This document shows, in pieces, positions 423 to 5,496 of a DNA stretch of 5,496 bases. Source of the stretch: Nitrososphaerota archaeon (GTDB lineage Archaea; Thermoproteota; Nitrososphaeria; Nitrososphaerales; UBA183). Made by a program: the position numbers and the translations under genes. Position 1 is the stretch's first letter. Each line of letters begins with the position of its first letter. The notes beneath the pieces are model-generated. The model was not told the DNA's origin. It made no database searches and was given only the letters and a program-made list of their open reading frames with translations. The stretch lies in NCBI GenBank assembly GCA_029785685.1, contig JAFLZE010000070.1, positions 1 to 5,496 on the forward strand. The letters are read 5' to 3'.

Positions 423-638
423 CTATCGGGCGTAGACCTGCTGTGGGAGGCGACCGAGCGAGTGAGCACGGGAGTGCCTCGCCATGTGGATGTAGCAGTA
501 GGCGTCGCCGCATATGTGGCACTCGAAGTGATATCCCAGGCGAAGCCTCCCCCCGCAGTACTGGCAGAAGGTCTCCCTGTCAACCTGGGCGTGCGCCGTC
601 CCGCTCATCTCCGAGCCCACACTCTCAAGGCCAGCCAC
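423..638 (-). CDS. AN1-like zinc-finger miniprotein
   Basis: A small cysteine/histidine-rich protein of unknown role. Counted from the internal ATG (608-606) it shows C15-x2-C18-x11-C30-x2-C33-x4-C38-x2-H41-x3-H45-x3-H49, then a short basic tail. The first five Cys and the first His follow the AN1 zinc-finger pattern, but the usual H-x5-H-x-C end is replaced by extra histidines, so I call it AN1-like. Start choice: the frame is open back to a GTG at 710, but 656-716 is AT-rich and holds a palindrome and TATA-like boxes, so it reads as promoter. GTG 638-636 lies 25 bases after the TATA-like ATATAC (663-658), matching other leaderless starts here; ATG 608 is the alternative (61 residues). Convergent with pgk, and in line with the 46-residue gene upstream. 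Similar archaeal proteins are thought to bind nucleic acid or protein; that is inference. Confidence 0.68.
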   Translation of the reverse strand: MAGLESVGSEMSGTAHAQVDRETFCQYCGGRLRLGYHFECHICGDAYCYIHMARHSRAHSLGRLPQQVYAR

Positions 639-657
639 CCTGCGAAGGGAGCCTGGA

Positions 658-666
658 GTATATGGG
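658..666 (-). promoter_or_regulatory. TATA-like box of the AN1-like gene
   Basis: On the minus strand the segment reads CCCATATAC. It sits about 25 bases before GTG 638-636 in an AT-rich stretch unlike its GC-rich surroundings. A second TATA-like element (GATATAG, 686-680) lies further upstream and could serve a start at ATG 608 with a leader. Confidence 0.4.
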
Positions 667-697
667 TTCTCGAAATAGTCTATATCACACACTATGG

Positions 698-716
698 CGT
701 ATTGTGCCACAATACG
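698..716. promoter_or_regulatory. Perfect 19-bp palindrome, operator candidate
   Basis: CGTATTGTG-C-CACAATACG has two perfect 9-base arms around a single central base. It lies between the stop of the 46-residue gene (718-720) and the AN1-like gene, 11 bases upstream of the TATA-like box at 680-686. The one-base centre and odd symmetry fit a dimeric regulator's operator better than an RNA hairpin. A weak terminator for the upstream gene is the alternative. Confidence 0.5.
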
Positions 717-970: not shown

Positions 971-1423
971 GTGGCGTTGCTCTTCCTAGTGTCCCACCGC
1001 CACTCCGTCGACAGGTGCCCCGGGAACCAGGGAAAGGAAGCCGCGGACAAGCACTACAGGAGCCTGCAGACCGACGTCGCCGCAAGGCTCGGGATCAAGA
1101 TAGTCGCTTTGTACACGGCGCCCATCGAGCACGCGCGGTTCATCGTGCTCCAGACCGACAGCTTCGAGGCGCTCAGGGACTACCTCGAGCCCCTCTATCT
1201 CATCGGAGAGGTGGAGGTCTTCCCGGTGTCGTCCTTCGAGGAGAGGGTCCACAGCATCGGAGCCAGGCTCGAGGCGCCGCCCACCGACTACTACTGCATG
1301 ACCTGCCGGGCGAACTTCTTCGAGACGGAGATGGGCGCTCACAAGACTCACAAGTACTACAGCCAGAAGCAGATGGAGGAGATATGGCCGCACGAGCTGG
1401 GTGGCGAGGCGGGTGGAGGCTAG
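971..1423 (+). CDS. Alpha/beta-barrel-like domain fused to a C2H2 zinc finger
   Basis: A 150-residue protein in two parts. Residues 1-98 alternate strands and helices: strand ALLFLVSHRHS, a conserved-looking C-P-G-N loop at 16-19, helix 24-40, strand IKIVALYTAP, the segment HARFIVLQTD, helix 64-72, and strand EVEVFPVSS. This layout resembles ferredoxin-like dimeric alpha/beta barrels of the DUF3303 type (H-x-H near the N-terminus, then C-P). That assignment is by pattern only. Residues 107-128 form a C2H2 finger: C109-x2-C112-x11-H124-x2-H127. The tail is short and Gly/Glu-rich. GTG start chosen because it sits 24 bases after a TATA-like box, with no in-frame Met upstream that fits. It is divergent from the 46-residue gene and followed by a strong hairpin. 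Function unknown; binding of a small ligand by the N-domain and of DNA or protein by the finger are possibilities, not shown. Confidence 0.78.
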   Translation: MALLFLVSHRHSVDRCPGNQGKEAADKHYRSLQTDVAARLGIKIVALYTAPIEHARFIVLQTDSFEALRDYLEPLYLIGEVEVFPVSSFEERVHSIGARLEAPPTDYYCMTCRANFFETEMGAHKTHKYYSQKQMEEIWPHELGGEAGGG

Positions 1424-2167: not shown

Positions 2168-2183
2168 TTCTCAGCGATGAGAA
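2168..2183. promoter_or_regulatory. Operator candidate TTCTCA-N4-TGAGAA upstream of hsp20
   Basis: TTCTCA-gcga-TGAGAA, a perfect inverted repeat with 6-base arms. It ends 13 bases before the TATA core (TTAAA, 2197-2201) of hsp20. The same arms and 4-base spacer recur at 3443-3458, also 13 bases from a TATA core. Placement just upstream of the core promoter would suit an activator, or a repressor blocking TFB; the sequence cannot say which. Confidence 0.62.
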
Positions 2184-2195
2184 ACATCTCCCCTG

Positions 2196-2202
2196 CTTAA
2201 AG
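2196..2202 (+). promoter_or_regulatory. TATA-like box of hsp20
   Basis: CTTAAAG, with GTG 2225 lying 28 bases after the first base of the TTAAA core. It overlaps the region just before an in-frame upstream GTG (2204), which makes 2204 an unlikely start since it would sit upstream of the expected transcription start. Confidence 0.5.
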
Positions 2203-2224
2203 GGTGGGCGCTCCTCCCGTCCTA

Positions 2225-2791
2225 GTGGCGAGCGGGTTGCCGGAGAAGACTGATGCAGGTACGAAGGTCGCGGTAAGGTCCCGGGAGAAGGAGCGCGAGG
2301 AGAGGTCTGGCGCGATACGGCCTTGGAATCCCGAGGACCTGCAGGACGTAGACCGGTGGTTCGACGAGTTCGGGAGGCGGTTCGAGAGGGCGTGGCCGTT
2401 CGTCGGCCCATGGTTCGCGCCCAGGGGTGCCAGGGGCAGGTGGATGGCAGAGCTCCCTGGCACCAGGCGCCCGTTCGCGGACCTGGTAGACTCTGGCGAC
2501 GGCTACCGCGTGATGGTGGAGGTGCCGGGCATCCCGAAGGAGAAGCTCAAGGTTGCTGTCACGGACAGGGAGGCGACGATACAGGGGGAGGCCCGCACCG
2601 ACGTCCACGAGGAGCGTGAGGGCTACGTCCGCCGGGAGAGGGGTTACTCCAGGGTGTCGAGGACGGTCGTATTCCCCGAGCCCGTGCTCGGGGCCAAGGC
2701 CGAGGCATCCGTGACAGACGGGGTCCTCGAGCTGAGGGTGCCAAAGAAGGAGCCCGCGAAGTCTGCGACGCACAGGGTCGCGGTAAAGTAG
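2225..2791 (+). CDS. hsp20: Small heat-shock protein (Hsp20/alpha-crystallin family)
   Basis: A 188-residue ATP-independent holdase that would bind unfolding proteins in the cytoplasm as an oligomer. Residues 1-83 are a variable N-terminal arm, very rich in Lys/Arg/Glu at 14-30 and then Trp/Phe-rich (WNPEDLQDVDRWFDEF, WPFVGPWFAP), as in archaeal and bacterial Hsp20s. The alpha-crystallin domain runs from about 84 (PFADLVDSGDGYRVMVEVPG) to 175. It contains the V-P-G-I-x-K-E-x-L segment, the ERGYSRVSRTVVFPEPV strand region and the signature GVLELRVPKK (166-175), equivalent to G-V-L-x-[IVL]-x-[IV]-P. The C-terminal RVAV can serve as the I-x-I-type anchor. GTG 2225 is chosen over GTG 2204 because of the TATA box at 2196-2202. 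It has its own promoter with a palindromic operator candidate. The N-arm's basic/acidic stretch is longer than usual. Confidence 0.93.
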   Translation: MASGLPEKTDAGTKVAVRSREKEREERSGAIRPWNPEDLQDVDRWFDEFGRRFERAWPFVGPWFAPRGARGRWMAELPGTRRPFADLVDSGDGYRVMVEVPGIPKEKLKVAVTDREATIQGEARTDVHEEREGYVRRERGYSRVSRTVVFPEPVLGAKAEASVTDGVLELRVPKKEPAKSATHRVAVK

Positions 2792-2792
2792 C

Positions 2793-2818
2793 CCCCGCCC
2801 GCTGTCGGGGCCTCGGGC
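2793..2818. terminator. Competing GC hairpins just after hsp20
   Basis: CCCCG (2793-2797) can pair with CGGGG (2806-2810), and the overlapping GCCCG (2797-2801) with CGGGC (2814-2818). Only one can form at a time. They start right after the hsp20 stop and separate it from the convergent pseudogene. There is no T-run, so a termination role is tentative. Confidence 0.3.
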
Positions 2819-2829
2819 AGGCCACTGCT

Positions 2830-3397
2830 GGTCCCCCGTCGATCATCCACATCGCCGTGTCCTTGATGTCCTTGTCGAACTGCCTCTCGTCGTGACGTGG
2901 ATCCGCTGGAAGAGCGGTGGCTCGAGATCCTCCTGAGGGTGTCCGACCACTGCTCCCGCGTCTCTTCGTCCACCCATCCCCTTCTTGTGCGGCGAGCGGA
3001 TCTCCTCGAATGTCCCTTAGCCCATCATCAGGTACGCGAAGGCCGTCGCAGCCTCCTTCAGCTCGAGCAGCCTTGCGAGCTCGGGCCTCTCCACGAGCGT
3101 CCTGAAGTCCGTGCCCTCGCGTCACATGACTGTCTGGACCGCCGACTCCCTGACGGACCTCTCCCGGCCCCTGAGCTGGAAAGTGAAGACCGCCAGCGTC
3201 GCGGTGTTGACCACGGTCTGGAAGGTGGTCACGACCCGCTCCCCACTGTAGACCAACGGGCGCCTGACACTGCGCCGGTTGCTTGTGCGGTGGCCGTCCT
3301 ATACGAGGGGGCCGGACGTGAGTGCCAGGAATAGTATCGCCAGTATCGAGGCTATCCCGGCCGCCAGAGCCAGCCCGAGGCTGCTGAACCCGCTCAT
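2830..3397 (-). pseudogene. Decayed membrane-anchored protein gene (three stops, two frameshifts)
   Basis: From ATG 3397-3395 one frame runs to about 2974 and still reads as protein: a hydrophobic N-terminal helix (MSGFSSLGLALAAGIASILA...), then after TAG (3301-3299) a piece containing VVTTFQTVVNTATLAVFTFQ, LRGRERSVRESAVQTVM; after TGA (3124-3122) REGTDFRTLVERPELARLL and EAATAFAYLMMG; after TAA (3019-3017) GTFEEIRSPHKKGM. The sense then continues in a second frame (VDEETREQWSDTLRRI, from 2973) and a third (DERQFDKDIKDTAMWMIDGG, from 2891). Joined, this is about 190 residues: one N-terminal membrane anchor and a helical, charged cytosolic domain. I do not recognise the family. Such a plan is common among small membrane-anchored hypothetical proteins in archaea and bacteria. 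The number of lesions makes decay much likelier than sequencing error or recoding. A TATA box and operator remain upstream. It is convergent with hsp20. Confidence 0.62.
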
Positions 3398-3422
3398 CGG
3401 GGACGCGGGTGAGGCGACCGCC

Positions 3423-3430
3423 GTTATAAC
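3423..3430. promoter_or_regulatory. Palindromic TATA box GTTATAAC in a divergent promoter
   Basis: GTTATAAC reads the same on both strands. On the minus strand it lies 26 bases (edge to start) from ATG 3397 of the pseudogene; on the plus strand it lies 28 bases from ATG 3458 of a 19-codon frame. It could therefore position RNA polymerase in either direction, with flanking BRE bases deciding. Confidence 0.5.
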
Positions 3431-3442
3431 GCGCCGATACGA

Positions 3443-3458
3443 TTCTCACTCCTGAGAA
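3443..3458. promoter_or_regulatory. Second copy of the operator candidate TTCTCA-N4-TGAGAA
   Basis: TTCTCA-ctcc-TGAGAA, extended by one more pair (A 3442 / T 3459) to 7-base arms. Arms and spacer length equal those of the site upstream of hsp20. It lies 13 bases from the TATA core (3424-3429) on the pseudogene side, the same geometry as at hsp20. For rightward transcription from the same TATA box it would instead cover the start site. Confidence 0.62.
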
Positions 3459-3517
3459 TGAGCCCGTCCTGGTATGGCGAAAACTTCAAAGCCATATTCG
3501 CTTCGACCCGCGCGTGA
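3458..3517 (+). other. Possible 19-codon leader frame overlapping the next start (GTGA)
   Basis: ATG 3458 to TGA 3515-3517 encodes MSPSWYGENFKAIFASTRA. Its stop overlaps the GTG start of the membrane-protein gene (3514) in the sequence GTGA, a layout typical of translational coupling, and its start is placed suitably after the palindromic TATA box. It may be a leader peptide, or only chance. Confidence 0.25.
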
Positions 3518-3975
3518 AGTTCGGATTGGACGTCGACTATGTCGCCTTCGCGGTGCTGATGGGGGTCTTCGGGATAGTTGGAATCACGGCCACGGCTCAC
3601 GTCAGCCCCAACGTCCTGGCTGCGGTCACCTGCAACTGCATCCCGGGTCCAGCGGCGAGGCTGCAGGAGCTGTCGGTGGTCTTCCTCGCTATCGGCCTGG
3701 TGCTCGCCCCCATAGGGCTGCTGCGCAAGGCCACGATCAGGGCACCCAGCCCGGCCGACGAAGCGGGCGCCTCGGGCGGGGCGGGGATCCCTCCGATGAG
3801 GAGCCCCGGCGTCTTCTTCCTCGGGGTAGCCCTCGTCGTCTTCGGGGTCGCCCTCGTGATAGCCCCGTCCTTCCTGGTCCTCAAGAACACGCTCCTCATC
3901 GGGGAGGGGGCGGGGATGGTGGTGCTCGGGGCGCTCTTCGGGTACACGGGTGGAAGGACCCGGCAGGTGGTCTGA
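3514..3975 (+). CDS. Four-helix membrane protein, unknown function
   Basis: A 153-residue hydrophobic protein with four likely transmembrane helices: about 9-27 (YVAFAVLMGVFGIVGITAT), 53-70 (LSVVFLAIGLVLAPIGLL), 98-117 (PGVFFLGVALVVFGVALVIA) and 125-144 (NTLLIGEGAGMVVLGALFGY). A loop between helices 1 and 2 contains C40-N-C42, which might bind a metal or form a disulfide. Between helices 2 and 3 is a flexible Ala/Gly/Pro-rich loop (77-97). I do not recognise the family. GTG 3514 is the first start in frame; a clear TATA box for it alone is not seen, but the 19-codon frame upstream overlaps it. It lies 67 bases before the Rieske gene on the same strand, so it may belong with the respiratory genes, but a TATA-like sequence in between suggests separate transcription. 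Confidence 0.7.
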   Translation: MKFGLDVDYVAFAVLMGVFGIVGITATAHVSPNVLAAVTCNCIPGPAARLQELSVVFLAIGLVLAPIGLLRKATIRAPSPADEAGASGGAGIPPMRSPGVFFLGVALVVFGVALVIAPSFLVLKNTLLIGEGAGMVVLGALFGYTGGRTRQVV

Positions 3976-4042: not shown

Positions 4043-4693
4043 GTCACGACGGACACCGAGCAAGCAGCACCAGACGAGGGGAGGCGGGACTTCCTAAAGT
4101 ACGCCGCCACTGCGTCGGCGGCTCTCGCGGTGGTCGGCGTGGCCGCCATGGCCAAGTCGGTGACCAACGGTGCCGCAGGCGGCGGAGCGGCCGCCCCCAC
4201 GACCTTCCCCAAGATACTGATCGCGAACATCAGCTCCCTGAAGGACAACGTCCCTGTGACGTTCAACTATCCTCTTCAGAACGAGCCCAGCCTTCTCGTC
4301 AAGGTGGGCCAGACGGCCGAGGGCGGGATAGGCCCCAACAACGACATCGTCGCGTTCAGCAACATCTGCCAGCACCTCGGGTGCATCTACGGCTTCCAGG
4401 CTCCCGGGACCTCGCCTCCCTGCAACTCCTCCTATGTGGCAAAGCAGCCGATGGGGTACTGCTGCTGCCACGGAAGCCAGTACGACTTTCTGGAGGGCGC
4501 GAAGGTGATAGGCGGGCCTGCTCCTCGACCCGTCCCGATGGTCAAGCTTGAGCTCGACTCCTCCGGTAACATCTACGCCATCGGGATGGACCCCCCGGTG
4601 ATCTACGGGCACGGGAGCCCCGGGTCTACCGACGTAACGACCGACCTGCAAGGCGGGACTCTGGTGACCGCCACCTCCGGAGGGCAAGCGTAG
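4043..4693 (+). CDS. Rieske iron-sulfur protein, Tat-exported
   Basis: The 2Fe-2S electron carrier that takes electrons from quinol in a cytochrome bc-type complex, facing outward. The N-terminus carries a twin-arginine signal: G-R14-R15-D-F-L-K followed by a hydrophobic, Ala-rich helix (about 20-36) that probably stays as the membrane anchor. Cluster box 1 is C109-Q-H111-L-G-C114; box 2 is C140-C-C142-H143-G-S-Q-Y-D. C109, H111, C140 and H143 are the expected iron ligands, and C114/C142 the disulfide. C141 replaces the usual Pro, and the 25-residue insert between boxes contains a further Cys (127). GPAPRPVPMVKLEL (about 159-172) is the conserved C-terminal G-P-A-x-R-P loop. Numbering assumes a start at 4043 (GTC). 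No ATG, GTG or TTG exists between the in-frame TGA at 4037 and the Arg pair, so the true start is uncertain: ACG 4046/4049 are alternatives. Cytochrome b follows directly. Confidence 0.9.
   Translation, partial: VTTDTEQAAPDEGRRDFLKYAATASAALAVVGVAAMAKSVTNGAAGGGAAAPTTFPKILIANISSLKDNVPVTFNYPLQNEPSLLVKVGQTAEGGIGPNNDIVAFSNICQHLGCIYGFQAPGTSPPCNSSYVAKQPMGYCCCHGSQYDFLEGAKVIGGPAPRPVPMVKLELDSSGNIYAIGMDPPVIYGHGSPGSTDVTTDLQGGTLVTATSGGQA
4679..4684 (+). promoter_or_regulatory. Ribosome binding site of cytochrome b inside the Rieske gene
   Basis: GGAGGG ends 9 bases before ATG 4694. It supports that ATG as the start and shows that this internal operon gene uses a Shine-Dalgarno site, unlike the apparently leaderless first genes in the window. 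Confidence 0.6.
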
Positions 4694-5496
4694 ATGGGCC
4701 ACGAGCAGGCGCAGCAGCAGGAAGAAGAGCCGCCAAAGGGCAAGATAGACCGGCTCGCGAGGTTCATATCGTCGCGGACCGGTGCGACGTACCCGCTCCT
4801 CAGGCCGGCCCCCGAGTACTCACTCAACCCGTTCTACTGGCTTGGCGCGCTCTCTGTGGTCGCGTTCCTGATACAAGGAGTCTCCGGGATCATCATGCTC
4901 CTCTGGTACACTCCAACGTCGGCCGCGGCCTACTCCTCCACGCAGTACATCTTCAAGAGCGTCTACATGGGCCAGTTCCTGGAGACGATCCACCTCTACA
5001 CTGCCTACGCGATGATAATGCTCGCCTTCATGCACATGATGAGAGGGTACTTCGTCTCGGTCCACAAAAAGCCCCGCGAGCTGATGTGGATAACGGGCAT
5101 GCTCATGGGCTTCGTGACCCTCGGGTTCGGCTTCACCGGGTATCTGCTGCCATACACGGTCGTGTCGGTGTCCGCATCGGACGTCGGCGTGGGGATGGTG
5201 AACGCCCTTCCCCCGCAGTTGGCGGGCCTGGTCAACTTCCTGATAACGGGCGGGGGGAGCACCGACGCGGAGCTCCTCCACTTTTACTTCCTGCACGTGG
5301 TGGTCCTCCCCGCCGTCCTCCTCGGCCTCCTTCTCGTCAAGATGATGATGCTGGAGACCCACGGCGTGGCCGAGCCGGTGACCGGGTCGCTCACTGCTAA
5401 GCTCAAGAGGACCCTCCCGATATTCCCCGACATGACCGTCTACATGCTGGAGCTGGCGATGATCTTCGGGGTCGGGATGCTCCTGGTCTCCGCCCT
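4694..5496 (+). CDS. Cytochrome b (b6-type), N-terminal 267 residues, continues beyond window
   Basis: The membrane subunit of a quinol-oxidising bc-type complex, holding two b haems and the quinone sites. ATG directly follows the Rieske TAG (TAGATG), so the two are one operon. After a polar N-terminus (1-48) come helices at about 49-72, 98-118, 133-155 and 196-218. Helix B has H100-x13-H114, then R118-G-Y and K-K-P-R-E-L-M-W, matching the b6 pattern H...H...R-x-Y...K-K-P-R-E-L-x-W. G-F-T-G-Y-L-L-P-Y (about 149-157) matches G-x-T-G-Y-S-L-P-W. Helix D has F-Y-F-L-H201-V-V-V-L-P206, matching b6 F-Y-S-L-H-T-F-V-L-P. The position 15 residues after H201, where b6 has its fourth haem ligand His, is K216; the next His is H223 in E-T-H-G. 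The C-terminal (subunit IV-like) part, fused or separate, lies outside the window. Confidence 0.93.
   Translation, partial: MGHEQAQQQEEEPPKGKIDRLARFISSRTGATYPLLRPAPEYSLNPFYWLGALSVVAFLIQGVSGIIMLLWYTPTSAAAYSSTQYIFKSVYMGQFLETIHLYTAYAMIMLAFMHMMRGYFVSVHKKPRELMWITGMLMGFVTLGFGFTGYLLPYTVVSVSASDVGVGMVNALPPQLAGLVNFLITGGGSTDAELLHFYFLHVVVLPAVLLGLLLVKMMMLETHGVAEPVTGSLTAKLKRTLPIFPDMTVYMLELAMIFGVGMLLVSA

Follow-up and report, generated by a model that had tools for sequence, protein, structure and literature searches.

Our study revealed that a palindrome present in two promoters of a 5,496-nucleotide (nt) stretch of Nitrososphaerota DNA (hereafter the window), TTCTCA-N4-TGAGAA, is one form of an operator that recurs at promoters across the family to which this archaeon belongs, 12–13 nt from the TATA box. 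The operator, its excess over chance, its register with promoters, its targets and its conservation are computational observations. We propose that a regulator, which we infer to be dimeric, would bind TTYYCA-N4-TGRRAA-TCG and thereby define a family-wide regulon serving low-potential electron flow together with matching stress proteins. As the regulon appears to serve these functions, redox state or low oxygen is the most likely signal, a reading that we favour with some reserve. The probability that operator, activation and redox role are jointly correct, leaving aside the identity of the protein that reads the site, is put at roughly 0.6.

The operator in the genome of the window

The two palindromes have the same arms and different spacers at the coordinates proposed by the first-pass annotation (Table 1), and each is separated by 13 nt from its TATA core (TTAAA, 2197–2201, on the plus strand; TTATAA, 3429–3424, on the minus strand), all as that annotation had described. 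From base composition, 6e-5 exact copies would be expected for the window and 0.018 for 1.6 Mb; the observed numbers were 2 and 9. The assembly of the window (G000; 1.6 Mb, 88 % complete; its contigs are numbered with C, and loci with L) holds nine exact sites, or 20 if one mismatch is allowed, and the reversed control gave none and one, respectively. All nine exact sites and 8 of the 11 one-mismatch sites are flanked, on one side or both, by a 6-mer rich in A/T (five or more of its positions) that starts 10–15 nt from the operator. The first-pass annotation had suggested a genome scan that could have found the motif at chance frequency and free of promoter bias; the scan found a strong excess and linkage to promoters.

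Five of the exact sites lie on contig C49, within a [NiFe]-hydrogenase/nickel gene cluster, where they precede a NicO nickel transporter, the hydrogenase small subunit, a 211-amino-acid (aa) protein without family match and a HypC-type maturation protein, the fifth sitting between DUF6390 and TatA and being common to both divergently. Two further exact sites, on contig C45, precede a 130-aa Ligase_CoA/FdrA-like protein with carbamate kinase downstream, and a 452-aa protein followed by a Rieske/cytochrome b pair. Sites with one mismatch precede DsrE2, DUF1059, a chagasin-like inhibitor, an amidohydrolase, an MFS transporter and proteins without match.

The C49 cluster (L018, 2445–19753) comprises NicO, a cytochrome b561-like protein, a radical SAM/B12 protein, HypC, the HycI protease, a NUBPL-type ATPase, DUF6390 and TatA. 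The Rieske/cytochrome b pair of L017 (G000:C45, 10–7232) is a second one, of the same families as the pair in the window.

Conservation of the operator within one family

An even sample of 300 genomes of the phylum, including G000, contained at least one exact match in 72 genomes and at least four only in G000, G161 and G191, and a wide phyletic spread is therefore not supported. In G161 and G191, 6 of the 11 sites were inspected by eye and had no common promoter geometry, one of them, at a locus of 33 % GC, having TTWW at +13. Among 46 genomes of the window's family, exact sites occurred in 21, with 5–9 each in G000, G306, G307, G308 and G332. A general operator, TTYYCA-N4-TGRRAATC, was derived from the promoters of one conserved regulator gene, which encodes an HTH_10 protein, and gave 181 matches in the 46 genomes (both strands, full palindromes being counted twice) vs 2 for the reversed control, with at least one match in 40 of the 46. 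In 89 sites that could be oriented by their TATA box, the TATA side reads TGRRAA-TCG, the G at the third position, which had not been selected for, being present in 82 %.

The window's family is very probably Gagatemarchaeaceae, the soil group I.1c, because palsa_1368 belongs to the same genus (as G302) and PMC10640624 assigns palsa-1368 to one family, Gagatemarchaeaceae, together with group I.1c. Within this family the operator is kept on orthologous genes for DsrE2 (G000, G327/G338 and G314), DUF1059 (G000 and G303), the gamma subunit of 2-oxoacid:ferredoxin oxidoreductase (POR; G333, G328, G327 and G321) and the hydrogenase small subunit (G000 and G307; 61 % identical over 66 residues, E 1e-24, the G307 gene extending off its contig). 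Closely related genomes were counted apart, and the target counts are not independent events.

Spacing to the TATA box and the sign of regulation

Promoter geometry was quantified at 95 distinct family sites (190 flanks), where TTWW starts at +12 in 32, at +13 in 61 and at +14 in 10, and in no more than 4 at each remaining position between 0 and 55; one TATA box can count twice in this tally. A stricter TATA rule is passed by 71 of the 95 sites. For 49 exact-arm sites of the family, chosen by operator alone, TTWW lies at +12/+13 on a side in 32, with about 0.9 expected from positions further out. By contrast with the family, 29 sites outside it had TTWW at +12/+13 in 5 cases and no peak. The median distance from TATA to start codon was 36 nt (100 open reading frame (ORF) calls), which is that of short-leader or leaderless genes. 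A first geometry pattern used the wrong spacing (matches in 7 of 46 genomes) and is the basis of no conclusion.

The excess, the linkage to promoters and the fixed register to TATA support the earlier suggestion that a single regulator, site-specific and of two-fold symmetry, acts on both promoters. With TATA taken to be near −27, an operator that ends 12–13 nt before it is centred near −52, from where the bound regulator may recruit TBP and TFB from upstream. Archaeal activators use positions upstream of the B recognition element (BRE) and TATA in fixed register, and because the operator is placed in this way, we consider that it probably acts in activation.

A palindrome near a promoter does not by itself give the sign of regulation, and the same operator could be bound by a repressor. 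However, archaeal repressors usually block TATA or start, whereas this site keeps a rigid distance to TATA, ending 12–13 nt upstream of it, and covers neither of the two; the sites found near the start are those of another palindrome, CCTAA-N4-TTAGG. Repression through the operator is thus unlikely. The nearly fixed position relative to TATA might also be expected if the element belonged to a core promoter class, recognised by a variant TFB or TBP, with no regulator involved. We judge this highly improbable, as at most about 20 sites were found per genome and the element is a palindrome whose 4-nt centre is free and which stops short of the BRE position. We know of no core promoter class of such a kind.

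Genes of the regulon

Targets were chosen mechanically from the 100 ORF calls, some of which are doubtful, as the 76 first genes of at least 50 aa starting 28–70 nt after an operator. They matched 65 Pfam families, and the 25 commonest include 4Fe-4S domains (6), HTH_10 (5), FAD_binding_2 (4), POR gamma (4), DsrE2 (3), and Usp, malic enzyme, TusA and DUF7521 (2 each); HSP20 is represented by the window's own gene. Four of the six 4Fe-4S targets are apparently POR proteins, and one of the four FAD_binding_2 targets is a weak match in a pyridine-nucleotide-disulphide protein. Ferredoxins and FAD flavoproteins are also among the targets. Genes scanned singly encode molybdopterin oxidoreductase, citrate synthase, pyruvoyl arginine decarboxylase, flavodoxin, P-II, GYD, CBS, VKOR, aspartate-ammonia ligase, DeoC and weak cupredoxin/CoxB-like proteins.

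Several observations weigh against a redox regulon of activated promoters. TATA boxes are missing at 3 of the 20 G000 sites, 24 of the 95 family sites fail the stricter rule (some carrying variants such as ATAAAT) and 17 of the 49 exact-arm sites have no TTWW at +12/+13. Several target proteins are without family match, and the amidohydrolase, MFS transporter, DUF1059 and peptidase-inhibitor-like targets are not evidently redox genes.

Two ferredoxins with a VapB-antitoxin-like N terminus (L070:10908–11345, minus strand; L243:2685–3101, plus strand) both have the operator. A haem-binding (EB_dh-type) label given by eye to the target family of L074 and L078 was dropped, the one member tested having no Pfam or NCBIfam match.

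Hsp20 and the heat-shock reading

The first-pass annotation had taken the exact operator at the window's hsp20 to suggest a heat- or stress-response regulator. A heat or general protein-stress regulon with Hsp20 as a core target would also accommodate the Usp proteins among the targets, and an operator-like site of the same geometry before the hsp20 of G308. We regard such a regulon as very unlikely, since the thermosome gene found is not a target, most Hsp20 relatives lack the site and many of the named targets are redox and electron-transfer enzymes. That thermosome gene (C6:93682), the one found in the 88 % complete assembly, has no operator nearby, the best match having 5 mismatches. The earlier expectation that the operator would be kept upstream of hsp20 in relatives mostly failed: among nine other Hsp20 genes of the family (E ≤1e-15), eight have no operator-like site with TATA before the start and one has, that of G308 (46 % identical), whose site has 2 mismatches to the TTCTCA arms and 1 to TTYYCA. 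In G000, 17 of the 20 sites with at most one mismatch have TATA, and one of these 17 is known to precede a chaperone, some of the first genes being without family match.

A candidate reader and a second palindrome

Of the 25 commonest target families, HTH_10 alone comprises transcription factors. The candidate proteins are about 215 aa long, with C31, C90, C100 and C103 invariant in 49 aligned sequences, and structural modelling predicts two ferredoxin-like domains before the helix-turn-helix. In two scanned candidates the HTH_10 domain (PF04967), which we take to be the family of Bat's helix-turn-helix, scored 69.8 and 58.8 bits (Pfam cut-off 23.1). Neither had a GAF or PAS Pfam match at E ≤0.01 or any sensor domain match, and HTH_Crp_2 reached 19.2 bits (cut-off 27) in one of the two, which does not place them in the FNR family.

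The HTH_10 gene has the operator (at most one core mismatch) and TATA in its own promoter in 21 of 24 family loci, and in 20 of 22 near full-length loci from named genomes, which are largely the same genomes, the latter count omitting three partial distant matches. Two of the three loci without operator (L111 and L126) are second copies, the other copy in the same genome having it. The 25 genomes with a completeness of 85 % or more divide into 20 that have a member of the HTH_10 group (E ≤1e-10), averaging 5.3 operator matches with own promoters removed, and 5 that have none, averaging 0.8 (P = 0.003); this grouping was chosen after seeing the data, and kinship is uncorrected. G308 has a divergent four-cysteine relative, and the relatives in G000 and G307 are without the full cysteine set. 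The 88 % complete assembly of G000 has a 27 % identical relative on C11 and another HTH_10 gene on C7. Taken together, we tentatively assign the reader, at just short of even odds, to a small group of Bat-type HTH_10 proteins found here, whose main type has the four invariant cysteines.

Against this assignment, a profile search detected no four-cysteine ortholog in G000, G306, G307 or G308, all of which are operator-rich, and no member of the HTH_10 group at all in G306 (76 % complete). The third locus without operator, L113, is the sole HTH_10 copy found in G323, a 70 % complete genome with zero operator matches. For the four-cysteine type alone, the association with operator counts vanishes in the more complete genomes (P = 0.22). 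Furthermore, a second palindrome, CCTAA-N4-TTAGG, occurs in 20 of the 22 HTH_10 promoters (one mismatch allowed; chance expectation about 0.01 in each) and tracks the four-cysteine type better than the TTYYCA operator does. Its counts in genomes with and without this type average 3.96 vs 0.64 (P = 1.6e-6, own promoter included) and 3.1 vs 0.64 with the own promoter removed (P = 9e-5).

In the HTH_10 promoters CCTAA-N4-TTAGG lies mostly near −98 and, in 10 of the 22, (also) between −14 and −22. The 46 family genomes hold 109 such sites vs 34 control sites, and the window holds none. In the window's genus, six of eight genomes (G000, G303, G304, G305, G306 and G308) have no site; G302, which has the four-cysteine type, has three, and G307 has two, one upstream of its HTH_10 relative. 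In some genes the second palindrome accompanies the first operator and stands close to the presumed transcription start, as in five POR gamma promoters where it covers the expected start of transcription, about 50 nt past the point at which the TTYYCA operator starts. Example loci are L086:5815, L110:1244 and 1323, L267:2682, L270:2391 and L273:2650.

CCTAA-N4-TTAGG fits the four-cysteine protein at least as well as the TTYYCA operator does, and may be the site of that protein itself, with TTYYCA read by another factor. The same regulon would then have a different transcription factor as its reader, and the four-cysteine gene would be merely a target, its product perhaps repressing its own gene from near the start. 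This variant, which is compatible with the regulon part of our explanation, is a possibility that we take seriously while placing it below even odds. It would account for the TTYYCA matches in genomes without the four-cysteine type (14 in G000, 10 in G308, 6 in G307 and 5 in G306), and for the CCTAA sites that are absent from most of the genus and differ strongly in number with the presence of this type. However, the HTH_10 relatives of G000 and G308 have a similar recognition helix and no CCTAA site, and TTYYCA fits the group better; nor do the 25 commonest target families include another transcription-factor family, the remainder of the genomes not having been searched for regulators.

Features of the window

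The coordinates of the operators, promoters and neighbouring genes are given in Table 1. No third copy of the operator was found in the window at up to two mismatches, in agreement with the first-pass annotation; the single extra match, at 79–94, has 3 mismatches, and three matches at up to 3 mismatches are not unusual (22 of 200 shuffles). The second site had been described as lying in a divergent promoter. Its minus side bears this out, having a TATA box and the 32-codon ORF, but on the plus side no TATA box lies at the regular distance before the gene at 3514–3975. The 32-codon ORF has no clear relative among the loci compared, and a 31 % identical relative of the 3514–3975 ORF occurs in L107. 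The hsp20 start compatible with a leaderless transcript is the GTG at 2225, whereas the mechanical ORF list gives 2204.

Table 1. Operators, promoter elements and genes of the window
Feature	Position	Strand	Remark
Operator copy 1, TTCTCA-gcga-TGAGAA	2168–2183		Sequence match
TATA-like element CTTAAA of the hsp20 promoter	2196–2201	+	TTAAA begins after 13 nt
hsp20 (alpha-crystallin family)	2225–2791	+	PF00011, E about 1e-15; GTG start shortly 3′ of TATA, probably leaderless
Operator copy 2, TTCTCA-ctcc-TGAGAA	3443–3458		TCG next on minus (TATA) side
TATA-like element TTATAA	3424–3429	−	13 nt from operator copy 2
32-codon hydrophobic ORF	3299–3397	−	Presumed leaderless target of operator copy 2; only gene placed to use it
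ORF on plus side of operator copy 2	3514–3975	+	No Pfam match; no TATA at regular distance
Rieske [2Fe-2S] protein	4046–4693	+	Context
Cytochrome b	4694–5494	+	Context; extends past window end

Elsewhere in the window, a small cysteine-rich ORF without Pfam match (423–710, minus strand) and a protein with a sub-threshold DUF3303 match (971–1423, plus strand) have no operator adjoining. Positions 1–826 precede the first base of contig C30 in the searched assembly, the two being seemingly different assembly versions.

Significance and comparison with known systems

A defined operator allows co-responding genes to be read from sequence alone, predicts conditional hydrogen oxidation in genomes with the hydrogenase cluster and provides a reporter-ready element with clear point mutations. 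To our knowledge there is no isolate of group I.1c, and regulons defined by operator plus spacing have rarely been resolved as sharply in archaea beyond haloarchaea, methanogens and a few thermophiles. Group I.1c archaea are described in an extract of PMC10640624 as prevalent in acidic soils, with a disputed oxygen lifestyle. A search of open-licence papers returned no description of this motif or regulon.

The archaeal heat-shock regulators Phr and HSR1 offer a likeness in that one hsp20 promoter is involved here, but their motif differs from this operator and the thermosome gene found is not a target. Among thiol-based archaeal transcription factors, to which the candidate may be likened, SurR has a role in hydrogen metabolism, and the recognition sites of OxsR, SurR and MsvR differ from this operator. 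In PMC9426492 these three belong to the TrmB or ArsR families, in contrast to HTH_10 here, and OxsR is reported as both activator and repressor.

The candidate reader shares its DNA-binding domain, PF04967, with Bat of Halobacterium. Bat induces bop at low oxygen, the bop promoter having an upstream activator sequence, and carries GAF and PAS/PAC domains, according to an extract of PMC2253796. The candidate differs in having four invariant cysteines and, as modelled, two ferredoxin-like domains instead of GAF and PAS, and the targets are different.

The DosR hypoxia/dormancy regulon of mycobacteria is similar in gene content only, by analogy; its hrp1 (hypoxic response protein 1) is a CBS protein. 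An extract of PMC4090907 lists hspX, several universal stress proteins, a ferredoxin, hypoxic response protein 1 and a nitrate-reductase-type gene in this regulon. DosR is, however, part of a bacterial two-component system, with an unrelated regulator and operator. FNR provides the idea of a cysteine-based redox switch acting through a palindrome with a 4-nt centre upstream of anaerobic energy genes, and differs in that a sub-threshold HTH_Crp_2 match in one candidate is all that recalls its family. Our boldest suggestion, to which we give limited credence, is a master switch in Gagatemarchaeaceae that is comparable to FNR or DosR yet of a separate kind. It would be a small protein of the HTH_10 family that combines two ferredoxin-like domains in tandem with a centre of four cysteines, perhaps of Fe-S type. 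At falling oxygen it would activate hydrogenase, ferredoxin and stress genes from a palindrome locked 12–13 nt before TATA, and CCTAA-N4-TTAGG, placed close to the start in some of these genes, would serve as an opposing brake.

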